The position numbers and the translations under genes are program-made. Below the pieces are notes generated by a model that worked only from the letters and a program-made list of their open reading frames with translations, was not told the DNA's origin and did no database searches. 33,347 nucleotides of DNA, taken from the NCBI GenBank assembly GCA_018830125.1, contig JAHJSY010000030.1:1-33347 (forward strand). Reading direction: 5' to 3'. Numbering within the stretch: the stretch's first letter is position 1; each line of letters begins with the position of its first letter. The stretch is from Patescibacteria group bacterium (GTDB taxonomy: Bacteria; Patescibacteriota; Minisyncoccia; Minisyncoccales; GWA2-38-27). This document shows positions 17,423 to 21,685 of this stretch, one piece after another.

Positions 17423-18592
17423 ATGGGATTATATGATTTGCCACAATTTAATTTTTCTGAAAAGATTAAGAGAATGTTGAGGGGAAGAAGAAAAAATAAT
17501 ATTAAAATCGTTACTTTGGCGGTTTCTCTTTCTATTGTTTTCGGCTTTATATCAGGTGCTGCGACCAGTACCTTCTTTTATTTCCAATTTAGTAATAATA
17601 TCGATAGAACAGATGTTAGGCCATTTGTAAAAGTTGAAGATATCATGCAGATTGAAGAGATTATAGATGACCCAATAGTTAAGGCAGTTGAAAAAAGTTC
17701 GCCGGCTGTGGTTAGTGTTGTTATAGGAGAAAAGGGCGGAGGGACTGGATTTCTTGTTTCTGAAGATGGCCTAATTCTAACTAACAAACATGTGGTCTTA
17801 GATGAAAAAGCAGAATACACGGTTTTCACTAGCGATGGCGAAGAGTTCTCGGCAAAAGTTTTAGCTAGAGATCCTCTCCAGGATTTGGCTATAATAAAGA
17901 TAAGCCAAGAAGATAAATTATTTCCAGTTTTGGAGCTAGGAGATTCAGACGATTTAAGGCCTGGGCAAACCGTAATTGCTATTGGTAATGCTTTAGCAGA
18001 ATTTAAGAACACTGTTTCAACGGGAGTTGTCTCTGGATTAGGTAGAACAATTACCGCTTCTGGTGGTACCTTTGTTGAAACTTTAGAAGACATTATTCAA
18101 ACAGATGCAGCAATTAATAAGGGAAATTCAGGTGGCCCGCTTTTGAACCTAGAAGGAAAAGTTATTGGGATAAATACAGCCATGGCTCTAGATGCTCAAA
18201 GTATTGGTTTTGCTATTCCGATTAATAAAGCCAAAAGAGCTATAGAGCAAATTCAAACAATAGGCAGAATTGTCTATCCGTTTATCGGTATTCGTTACGT
18301 GATGGTTAATGAGAAAGTTAAAGAAGAATATGGCCTAACGGTTGATTACGGTGTTCTAATTACTAAAGGTGGTTTGTTGCAACCATCTATAACTCCTGGC
18401 TCGCCGGCAGAAGAAGTAGGACTGGAAGAGAAAGATGTTGTTTTGGAAATAAATAATGAAAAGATTAATGCTGAAAATTCTTTAGCCGAGATTATTTTAA
18501 AATATAATCCAGGAGAAGAAGTTACTTTAAAGGTTTTACGTGATGATCAAGAATTAGAAATTAAATTAACTTTAACCGAAAGGCCAGAATAA
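17423..18592 (+). CDS. htrA: HtrA/DegP-type S1C serine protease with PDZ domain
   Basis: 'GTGFLVSEDGLILTNKHVV', 'DPLQDLAIIKI', 'AINKGNSGGPLLN', C-terminal PDZ 'ITPGSPAEEVGLEEKDVVLEINNEKI'. Confidence 0.93.
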   Translation: MGLYDLPQFNFSEKIKRMLRGRRKNNIKIVTLAVSLSIVFGFISGAATSTFFYFQFSNNIDRTDVRPFVKVEDIMQIEEIIDDPIVKAVEKSSPAVVSVVIGEKGGGTGFLVSEDGLILTNKHVVLDEKAEYTVFTSDGEEFSAKVLARDPLQDLAIIKISQEDKLFPVLELGDSDDLRPGQTVIAIGNALAEFKNTVSTGVVSGLGRTITASGGTFVETLEDIIQTDAAINKGNSGGPLLNLEGKVIGINTAMALDAQSIGFAIPINKAKRAIEQIQTIGRIVYPFIGIRYVMVNEKVKEEYGLTVDYGVLITKGGLLQPSITPGSPAEEVGLEEKDVVLEINNEKINAENSLAEIILKYNPGEEVTLKVLRDDQELEIKLTLTERPE

Positions 18593-18594
18593 TC

Positions 18595-18623
18595 TTGACA
18601 GGGTCTTTGGATTTTGATAGAAA
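18595..18623 (+). promoter_or_regulatory. Promoter TTGACA-N17-TAGAAA with extended -10 (TGATAGAAA)
   Basis: TTGACA 18595-18600; the -10 lies in a block shared with the clpB start region. Confidence 0.5.
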
Positions 18624-18630
18624 TAAGTAT

Positions 18631-18690
18631 ATGAGAATACAAATTAATCAAATTTTCTTTAACTTTAGCTTTTTTAGAAAAAAGGGTTAG
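18631..18690 (+). CDS. Putative Phe-rich leader peptide, 19 aa (MRIQINQIFFNFSFFRKKG)
   Basis: ATG 7 nt after -10; FFNFSFF stretch; stop UAG lies in a segment that can pair with the downstream terminator arm. Confidence 0.45.
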   Translation: MRIQINQIFFNFSFFRKKG

Positions 18691-18717
18691 TTTGTTTAAA
18701 AAATAAATAGCAAGTTG

Positions 18718-18746
18718 ACCCTTCGAGAAAAGGGTTTTTATTTTTC
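18718..18746 (+). terminator. Attenuator-type terminator
   Basis: ACCCTT-cgagaa-AAGGGT then TTTTTATTTTT; competing antiterminator AAGGGTTAG (18682-18690) with TTGACCCTT (18715-18723). Confidence 0.5.
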
Positions 18747-18773
18747 ATAGTTCTTTAAAAAAGGAGATAGATA

Positions 18774-18965
18774 ATGCATAGATTTTGCAAACTAATATAC
18801 GGAAACAGGGGAGATTGTCATGATTGCGATGGAACAAAAAAATGTCAAAGTTGTAATGGTTCGGGAGAACATCCTAGTTTAAGGGGTTGTAAATGTCCGA
18901 GTTGCGATGGTACGGGAGTATGTTTTTATTCTCCTAATTTCAAAAAGGTGATAGGACAAAATTGA
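18774..18965 (+). CDS. Mini DnaJ-type cysteine-rich zinc-finger protein, 63 aa
   Basis: Three CxxCxG(x)G-like units: CHDCDGT, CQSCNGSG, CPSCDGTG; AAGGAG Shine-Dalgarno upstream. Confidence 0.7.
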   Translation: MHRFCKLIYGNRGDCHDCDGTKKCQSCNGSGEHPSLRGCKCPSCDGTGVCFYSPNFKKVIGQN

Positions 18966-18980
18966 AAAGTTCTTTATATG

Positions 18981-19012
18981 GCCCTGATTTATTTCAGGGC
19001 TTTTCTTTTTTG
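18981..19012 (+). terminator. Rho-independent terminator after mini zinc-finger gene
   Basis: GCCCTGA-tttatt-TCAGGGC then TTTTCTTTTTT. Confidence 0.85.
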
Positions 19013-19036
19013 TGGATTTATGATAGAAAAGAGTAT

Positions 19037-21685
19037 ATGAATGGTGCTAATTTTACCAGAAAAGCTCAAGAAGCCATATTAAAAGCTCAATCTATTGCTC
19101 AAGAAAGAAAGCAACAGCAGGTGGATGCCTTACATCTGCTTTTGGCTTTACTTCTTCAAGAGGAAAGCGTTGTTTTAACCTTGTTTAGAAAACTTAAAGC
19201 CGATGTAGAAACTCTAAAAAGAAGAACCGAAGGAGCTTTAAATAGGTTGCCTAATGTTAATACTCCCCAAGCTTTTGGTCAGTTTTATTTAACCCAAGAC
19301 ATGGCGAAGATTTTAGAAAGGGCTCGTCAAGAATCAATTAAGATGAGCGATGAGTTTATGTCAGTAGAGCATTTGTTTTTAAGTCTTTTAAGTGCTGATA
19401 CAAAAGCAAAAGATATTTTAGAAACAGCTAAAATAGATTATGAAAATGTCTTAAAATTGTTAGCTGAAATTAGAGGTGGAGAGAGAATAACCGACCCAGA
19501 GCCGGAATCAAAATACCAAGTTATTGAAAAATATTCTAGAAATTTAACAGTTCTAGCCCAAAAGGGAAAGCTTGATCCAGTGATTGGAAGAGAAGACGAA
19601 ATTAGAAGATTGATGCAAGTTCTTTCCAGAAGGACTAAAAACAATCCAGTTTTAATCGGGGAGGCCGGGGTTGGTAAAACAGCCATTGTTGAGGGATTGG
19701 CTCAAAGAATTGTGAGATCGGATATTCCAGAGAGCTTGAAAGATAAAGAAGTTATTGCTTTAGATTTAGGAGCTTTGATTGCTGGAACGAAATATCGAGG
19801 AGAATTTGAAAATAGAATCAAGGCCCTGATTAAAGAGATTAATAGAGCTGGCGGTAAATATATATTATTTATTGATGAACTTCATACTTTAGTTGGAGCT
19901 GGATCAGCAGAAGGATCGGCTGATGCCTCTAATCTTTTAAAGCCGTCTTTGGCTAGAGGAGAATTAAAAGCTATTGGGGCAACTACCTTAAAAGAATACC
20001 AAAAATATATTGAAAAAGATGGGGCCCTAGAGAGAAGATTTCAACCAGTTTATGTCCAAGAACCAACGATAGATGACACGGTAGCTATTTTAAGGGGTAT
20101 AAAAGAAAAATACGAAGTTCATCACGGATTAAGAATAAAGGACTCAGCTTTAGTCGCTGCCGTTGAGTTAGCTTCTAAATATATTTCTGATAGATTTCTT
20201 CCGGATAAAGCAGTAGACTTAATGGATGAAGCGATGTCAGCTTTGCGTTTAGAGATTGAATCAAGACCGAGCAAGTTAGACGAACTTCACAAAGAAATCC
20301 AAAAACTTGAAATTGAAAAACGAGCTATTAAAAAAGAAAACGACAATAAGAGATTGATGACTATTAATCGCTCTTTAGCTGACTTGAGAGAAAAAGCGAG
20401 GGCTTTTGAATTGAAATGGAAAGCAGAAAGAGATTTAATCCAAAAAATAAAGAAGTTTAAAAAAGAAATAGATGGGCTTTCTTTTGAAATAGAGGTTGCT
20501 CAAAGAGAAGCTAATTTACAAAAAGTTGCTGAAATTAAGTATGGGACGATTCCTAACCTATTGAAACAAATAAAAGTAACTGAAAAAGAATTAATTAAGG
20601 TTCAAAGAAATAGCAAAATATTGAAAGAAGAGATAGAAGAGGAAGATGTAGCTAGGGTTGTTTCTAGGTGGACAGGTATTCCGGTAATGAGGTTGATAGA
20701 AGAAGAAGCTAGAAAGCTAGAAAAGATGGAAAATATAATTGCCAATAGGGTTATTGGTCAAAAACAGGCCGTTAACGCCATCTCAAACGCAATTCGTCGC
20801 TCAAGAGCTGGAATTTCTGAGCAGGGAAGACCTCTTGGTTCATTTATGTTCCTAGGACCCACTGGTGTTGGTAAGACAGAAACAGCTAGAGCTGTTGCTG
20901 AATTTCTATTCAATGATCAGAACGCTTTGATTAGATTAGACATGTCTGAATATATGGAAAAACATTCGGTTTCAAAAATAATCGGCTCTCCTCCAGGATA
21001 TGTTGGTTATGAAGAGGGAGGACAACTAACAGATAAAGTTAGGAGAAGACCTTATAGCGTAATTTTACTTGACGAGATTGAGAAAGCTCATCCTGAAGTT
21101 TTTAACATCTTGCTTCAGATTCTTGAGGATGGAAGATTGACCGATGCTAAAGGAAGGACAGCTTCTTTTAAGAATGCTATTTTAATTATGACTTCTAACA
21201 CTGGTTCTGAATATATAGCCCAGATGGGGTCTTTAGGTTTCTTAAGAGAAGGAGAAGAAATAGAAAGAAAGTCTTTAGAATCAAAAGTGGGAGCTGCTTT
21301 GAAGGAAGATTTTCGTCCAGAGTTTCTAAACAGAATTGATGAAGTGGTTATTTTTAATTATCTAGGCAAACAAGAAATCAGAAGGATAGTTGATTTAGAG
21401 CTGAATAAAGTTAAAAGTAGATTAAGGCCGAAAAATATTAAAATTAAATTTTCAGAACAATCGAAAGAACTATTAGCTGATCAGGGCTTTGATCCTAATT
21501 TAGGAGCCAGGCCACTTAAAAGAGTAATTCAAAAGAAAATTCTTGATCCCTTGGCTTTAAAGATTGTTTCCGGAACTATAAGAGATGGAGAAGAAATTAC
21601 AATAGATGTAAATGGTCAAAATATTATAATTAAGACCATGGCTGATTTAATAGAAATTAAAAAAGAAGAAAAGGTTTATGTCTAA
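19037..21685 (+). CDS. clpB: ClpB-type disaggregase (start at 19037 preferred over the 18962 track start)
   Basis: Clp N domain, Walker A 'GEAGVGKT' and 'GPTGVGKT', long coiled-coil middle domain as in ClpB, '[13 protein letters not shown]'. Confidence 0.93.

Follow-up and report, generated by a model that had tools for sequence, protein, structure and literature searches.

Background

The pheL (pheA leader) and pheM (pheST leader) attenuators of enterobacteria combine a Phe-rich leader ORF with alternative antiterminator and terminator helices and place their genes under the control of Phe-tRNA charging. The window analysed here, a stretch of 33,347 nucleotides from a Patescibacteria genome, contains an element between htrA and clpB that resembles them in its leader ORF and alternative helices, and probably also in its control by Phe-tRNA charging; a comparable run, FFFAFFF, is found in the pheA leader peptide. 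It differs from pheL and pheM in that the leader ORF appears to be leaderless, without a Shine-Dalgarno sequence, and in that the target gene encodes a small zinc-finger protein. The Rfam model Phe_leader (RF01859) gave no match in the window at E ≤ 5 and 32 bits (gathering score 55) on the copy in the related genome G004.

Leaderless Cys-rich uORF attenuators of mycobacteria resemble this element in a run of the regulated codon and in a leader ORF translated from a message that is leaderless, in the window probably so, but belong to another phylum, and the window has a transcription terminator and a four-segment switch. T-box riboswitches (RF00230) are also sensors of tRNA charging; however, the window element has a leader ORF and no T-box motif, and a T-box search of the window genome gave no match.

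A small zinc-binding protein, anti-TRAP, is encoded by rtpA of Bacillus subtilis under T-box control by uncharged tRNA-Trp (PMC11255114, whose reference list cites work on the rtpA leader peptide). Here, too, a small zinc-finger product would be tied to the uncharged tRNA of an aromatic amino acid, although by a Phe attenuator rather than a Trp T-box and without TRAP. By analogy, anti-TRAP can be regarded as the nearest functional parallel, one limited to control logic because no TRAP gene was found.

Literature searches, in a collection without most subscription papers, listed no relevant result on leader-peptide attenuation for Patescibacteria, for Parcubacteria or for the candidate phyla radiation. 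From the analysis below, 18595-18745 is probably a ribosome-mediated transcription attenuator that senses tRNA-Phe charging and controls the gene at 18774-18965. The mechanism class is a known one, with a zinc-finger target in place of an amino-acid gene.

Promoter and leader ORF

The promoter (18595-18623; all window features are on the + strand) consists of TTGACA (18595-18600), a 17-nt spacer and TAGAAA (18618-18623), with TG just 5' forming an extended -10. A first-pass annotation, made from the letters alone, had placed these hexamers and the ATG 7 nt downstream at the correct coordinates. This ATG opens the leader ORF MRIQINQIFFNFSFFRKKG (18631-18690, stop codon included) at about the expected transcription start, and the ORF has no Shine-Dalgarno sequence. 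Of 43 homologous leaders examined, 35 carry TTGAC 33 to 41 nt upstream of their ATG, compared with a background of 1.4%, and four show a Shine-Dalgarno-like motif; homologous leader ORFs would therefore usually be leaderless. Initiation at the leader ATG in the window is probably leaderless as well.

The sequence GATAGAAANNAGTATATG occurs without mismatch at two sites only in the genome, over the leader ATG (18616-18633) and over the ATG of clpB (19022-19039), where it forms a putative extended -10 and leaderless ATG; the next-closest match carries two mismatches. It was considered as a clpB-type heat-shock or stress promoter and rejected. Since the TTGAC spacing and the lack of a Shine-Dalgarno sequence are general among the leaders, GATAGAAANNAGTATATG reads better as an extended -10 plus leaderless ATG.

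Five of seven consecutive codons in the leader ORF encode Phe (18655-18660, 18664-18666 and 18670-18675), as first noticed, which gives this short ORF the kind of codon run found in amino-acid attenuators. When the core of the ORF was shuffled 5000 times with dinucleotides preserved, 76% of the shuffles acquired an in-frame stop, and just 0.04% (a frequency of 0.0004) stayed open with at least five Phe per seven codons. AT-richness alone, which might have accounted for the TTT codons, is thus no explanation for the run. The window leader has 19 codons, whereas most homologous leaders are longer (24 to 28 codons).

Alternative helices

Segment 1 (ACAAATTAATC, 18639-18649) forms a protector hairpin (1:2) with 18685-18695. 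Segment 2 (AAGGGTTAGTTTGTT, 18682-18696) holds the leader stop codon and pairs either with segment 1 or with segment 3 (AGCAAGTTGACCCTT, 18709-18723), the antiterminator partner, whose 3' half doubles as the terminator's 5' arm. The intrinsic terminator (3:4, 18717-18745) is the stem-loop GACCCTT-CGAGAA-AAGGGTT (18717-18736) followed by the T run TTTATTTTT (18737-18745). The 9-bp pairing first proposed between 18682-18690 and 18715-18723 is real, but its length was understated: the antiterminator (2:3) has 15 bp, joining 18682-18696 to 18709-18723 (P = 0.007 when this locus by itself is compared with shuffles). The 1:2, 2:3 and 3:4 helices are mutually exclusive. The predicted protector hairpin, absent from the first-pass annotation, completes a textbook four-segment attenuator.

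Folding, in equilibrium rather than co-transcriptional predictions, switched between antiterminator and terminator as the mechanism requires. The whole leader is predicted to form 1:2 and 3:4, with the terminator on. When the fold began at 18664, with segment 1 covered, the minimum-energy structure contained the 15-bp antiterminator and the terminator was gone; from 18697, with segments 1 and 2 covered, the terminator returned. The terminator stem is weak (-7.4 kcal/mol), and the whole-leader fold is moderately better than those of shuffles (z = -1.8).

The Phe codons (18655-18675) precede segment 2, and the stop codon (18688-18690) lies inside it. With a ribosome footprint of textbook size, a ribosome stalled on the run would leave segment 2 free, and one terminating at the stop codon would cover it.

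As deduced from this layout, stalling and the direction of regulation would be as follows. Transcription would start at the leader ATG or about one base 5' of it, and a ribosome could therefore load on the leaderless message. A shortage of Phe-tRNA would stall this ribosome at the Phe codons, where it would cover segment 1; segments 2 and 3 would then pair, blocking the terminator, and polymerase would enter the zinc-finger gene. With ample Phe-tRNA, the ribosome would reach the stop codon and cover segment 2, and the terminator would form. Without a ribosome, 1:2 and 3:4 would form and the zinc-finger gene would be off.

Covariation and distribution

Relatives were compared at 11 loci chosen on aromatic content and a terminator and not on complementarity, the window itself excepted. 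The region from codon 11 to the terminator, tested against the 5' arm of the terminator and its flank, showed 2:3 complementarity above that of dinucleotide shuffles at all 11 (P = 0.001 to 0.013 each; Fisher 1.8e-19). Pairing of 1:2 was weaker, jointly significant over the 11 loci (Fisher 5e-7) and individually non-significant in G008, G063, G235 and G199.

In an alignment of nine leaders, 91.8% of 2:3 positions were paired, and 10 of the 17 pairs had changed on both sides. This number of both-side changes was matched by one of 500 shuffles, and the percentage paired and the covariation score by none; sliding the alignment by one column lowered 2:3 pairing to 66% or less. For 1:2 and 3:4 together, the outcome was alike, with 83.6% paired and 10 pairs changed on both sides. 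The leaders are short and AT-rich, and their alignment may have biased these figures towards the structure that was taken from G004.

When a covariance model was built with the window left out, it still matched 18631-18743 (44.3 bits, E = 9.9e-6). The nine-leader model (R1) gave approximately 65 matches at E < 1e-4 in 247 genomes of the order; from outside the order there were four such matches in a sample of 387 genomes of the class, so the attenuator family is concentrated in this order. The aromatic codon run is present in the aligned leaders of relatives, and the homologous leader peptides are variable except for their wealth of aromatic residues and the stretch encoding segment 2. Ribosome-mediated attenuation at Phe codons, suggested by the first-pass annotation from the architecture, gains strong support from this comparison, since many relatives share the leader, the two alternative helices and the distance from promoter to ATG, often upstream of genes for aromatic biosynthesis. 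Neither of the refuting conditions set out in that annotation, a lack of conservation of the Phe codons and competing helices or an origin of the TTT codons in AT-richness alone, was borne out.

Genes downstream of homologous leaders

Aromatic-type leaders stand upstream of genes for DAHP synthase, prephenate dehydratase, EPSP synthase and a DeoC/LacD-family aldolase, and also of assorted small ORFs. For Cys-type leaders, the next genes are those of cysK-like PALP enzymes, cysS and the gene of a class II tRNA synthetase (PF01409). Among the enzymes identified, some by Pfam and the rest by recognition of their sequence, aromatic and Cys leaders did not cross. When the 247 genomes of the order were searched, full-length DAHP synthase genes turned up in roughly ten, eight of them with an aromatic-rich leader and terminator upstream. 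Within the order, the window element falls among the attenuators that precede DAHP synthase and other aromatic genes.

Leader ORFs rich in Cys, such as MIYQNEKTCCCCCLISLRKGLV, were seen together with terminators at L149, L150, L156, L158, L161, L162, L163, L164 and L165, just upstream of the cysK-like genes, cysS and the class II tRNA synthetase gene. From their architecture, which is that of the window element, these leaders of the same order are apparently Cys attenuators. At L168 (near 560-690), a manual reading gave an Ile-rich leader, MNKFCFKKSIIISIIINPLLKKG, ending in a stop codon and followed by a terminator and a LeuA/citramalate-synthase-like gene with HMGL-like and LeuA dimerisation domains.

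Stand-alone DAHP synthase ferredoxin-like domains of 66 to 90 aa lie behind Phe attenuators at L085 (2157-2417, - strand), L126, L134 and L143. The match to PF18152 was above cut-off in G008 and G186 and below it in G209 and G205; in the genomes with these domains, the DAHP synthase search found nothing. Two more small ORFs follow Phe leaders: an 81-aa CxxC zinc-ribbon-like ORF preceded by a Phe-rich leader and terminator at L220 (1219-1461, - strand) in G534, from another family of the class, and a 63-aa Cys-rich ORF (CWICEWC...CKNC) at L133 in G038, with a weak Pfam match.

The htrA-clpB slot

Upstream of the attenuator, and outside its unit, is a gene for an HtrA-type serine protease (17423-18592); downstream, clpB (19037-21685) forms its own transcription unit. 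The two serve as synteny markers. In between, the regulated gene (18774-18965), preceded by the Shine-Dalgarno sequence GGAG (18763-18766), encodes P0001, a 63-residue protein of DnaJ zinc-finger type (CxxCxG), and a terminator closes the unit (18980-19011, comprising a stem-loop at 18980-19001 and a T run). Both the zinc-finger gene and clpB had been named as downstream genes in the first-pass annotation. The former stands as the target, but clpB, considered as a second target, was rejected, being separated by the stem-loop at 18980-19001 and having the promoter-like GATAGAAANNAGTATATG at its own ATG. The predicted target is the small zinc-finger ORF alone.

Thirty loci downstream of HtrA were examined, including that of the window. 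A Phe-rich ORF followed by a terminator was found at four, in the window genome (G000), G004, G031 and G008. The gene after the leader encodes a zinc-finger ORF with 39% identity to that of the window in G004, DAHP synthase in G031 (PF00793, 261 bits) and an 86-residue stand-alone DAHP synthase ferredoxin-like domain in G008 (PF18152, 33.7 bits, cut-off 27). As HtrA, the leader, DAHP synthase and ClpB follow one another in G031 and in G211, the slot is shared and the window holds another target in it; the direction in which the target was replaced is one that we infer.

The window genome comprises 617,556 bases in 55 contigs and is listed as 100% complete. Two enzymes, DAHP synthase and prephenate dehydratase, were searched for in G000, G004, G006 and G008, and neither was found. 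The window bacterium seems unable to make phenylalanine. A target in the metabolism of the sensed amino acid is usual, although the mechanism does not require it; many relatives have one, whereas the zinc-finger ORF lies outside Phe metabolism. With this gene in the slot, Phe starvation would therefore induce a zinc-finger protein in a genome without the two enzymes.

The absence of both enzymes is compatible with a decayed relic, in which DAHP synthase was lost, the attenuator was left behind and the zinc-finger ORF lies downstream by chance, so that regulation is irrelevant. The truncated leader, with its stop inside segment 2, and the variety of targets in the slot (DAHP synthase, its stand-alone ferredoxin-like domain, a zinc finger) would fit such decay. 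However, the promoter, ORF and both helices are intact, the bases specific to the window still pair, the leader and zinc-finger arrangement is kept in three genera, and G007 has a related zinc-finger pair behind an independent tRNA sensor. A relic is unlikely, while still deserving consideration.

The first-pass annotation had left the signal as either Phe-tRNA charging or the general state of translation. A leader that responds to slow or blocked translation generally, of the antibiotic or arrest-peptide type, would suit a target that is not an amino-acid gene, and amino-acid specificity does not follow from the architecture alone. Yet codon runs in homologues track the downstream pathway, aromatic or Cys, and the peptide varies beyond its aromatic richness and segment 2-coding part. 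Because the run turns to Cys upstream of Cys genes, Phe is favoured, and a general sensor is improbable. An ordinary htrA terminator beside an incidental Phe-rich ORF with chance complementarity, as a stem-loop about 125 nt 3' of htrA might suggest, is contradicted by the comparative data (covarying alternative helices, conserved promoter-to-ATG spacing and attenuator units away from htrA upstream of aromatic genes) and is hardly credible.

The zinc-finger protein and other tRNA sensors

Attenuation in response to Phe-tRNA charging remains the preferred reading, and its target, P0001, resembles known families below their cut-offs. It scored 18.9 bits (E = 0.0019) against the central zinc finger of DnaJ (PF00684, gathering threshold 32.7), and its best match of solved structure by sequence was a DnaJ chain, 1exk. 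The best NCBIfam match was RtpA (17.8 bits, cut-off 65, E = 0.0027), which in Pfam gave 15.6 bits against a cut-off of 32. AlphaFold2 on the single sequence gave a pLDDT of 43.5, too low for use. Zinc binding and the function of P0001 are thus putative. It was also considered as a literal anti-TRAP and rejected, as the TRAP partner is absent: PF02081 found nothing in G000 and 19 relatives, while the B. subtilis control was found.

Three genera, represented by G000, G004 and G006, combine a leader with a DnaJ-type Cys-rich ORF downstream. A zinc-finger scan of genome contigs added two distant Clostridia loci only. Since the zinc-finger homologues are few and divergent (identity 39% in G004 and 24% in G006), selection can be claimed with less certainty for this target than for the leader. 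In G007, from a fourth genus, a related pair of zinc-finger ORFs lies behind a T-box that scored 57 bits, below the Rfam gathering score of 93, although it carries GGGUGGUACCGCG and CGUCCC motifs. Its specifier is UGG (Trp) in a manual reading, matched by position to SerRS T-boxes of the order with a Ser codon in the apical loop.

T-boxes whose stem I is very short and whose specifier is apparently UGG (Trp) were seen at L194, L204, L206, L209, L212 and L215. Those at L204, L206, L209 and L215 precede small CxxC zinc-ribbon-like ORFs, themselves upstream of a TyrRS-like gene.

It is conceivable that small zinc-binding proteins act as effectors when amino acids run short and that sensors of tRNA charging have recruited them repeatedly, which would amount to an anti-TRAP-like response without TRAP in small, apparently auxotrophic bacteria. 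We propose this tentatively, from the DnaJ-type fingers with Phe attenuators (G000, G004 and G006) and with the Trp-specifier T-box (G007). Other small Cys-rich ORFs lie behind both types of sensor (G038 and G534; G208, G211, G212 and G215).

Conclusions

An apparently leaderless leader ORF, which most homologues share, departs from textbook enterobacterial attenuators. In these mostly uncultured bacteria, the element would serve as a natural reporter of Phe limitation. A biosynthetic switch would have been retained where the biosynthetic genes searched for are absent and coupled to a small zinc-finger protein, which makes testable the role that a small Cys-rich protein may have when an apparently auxotrophic cell lacks an aromatic amino acid.
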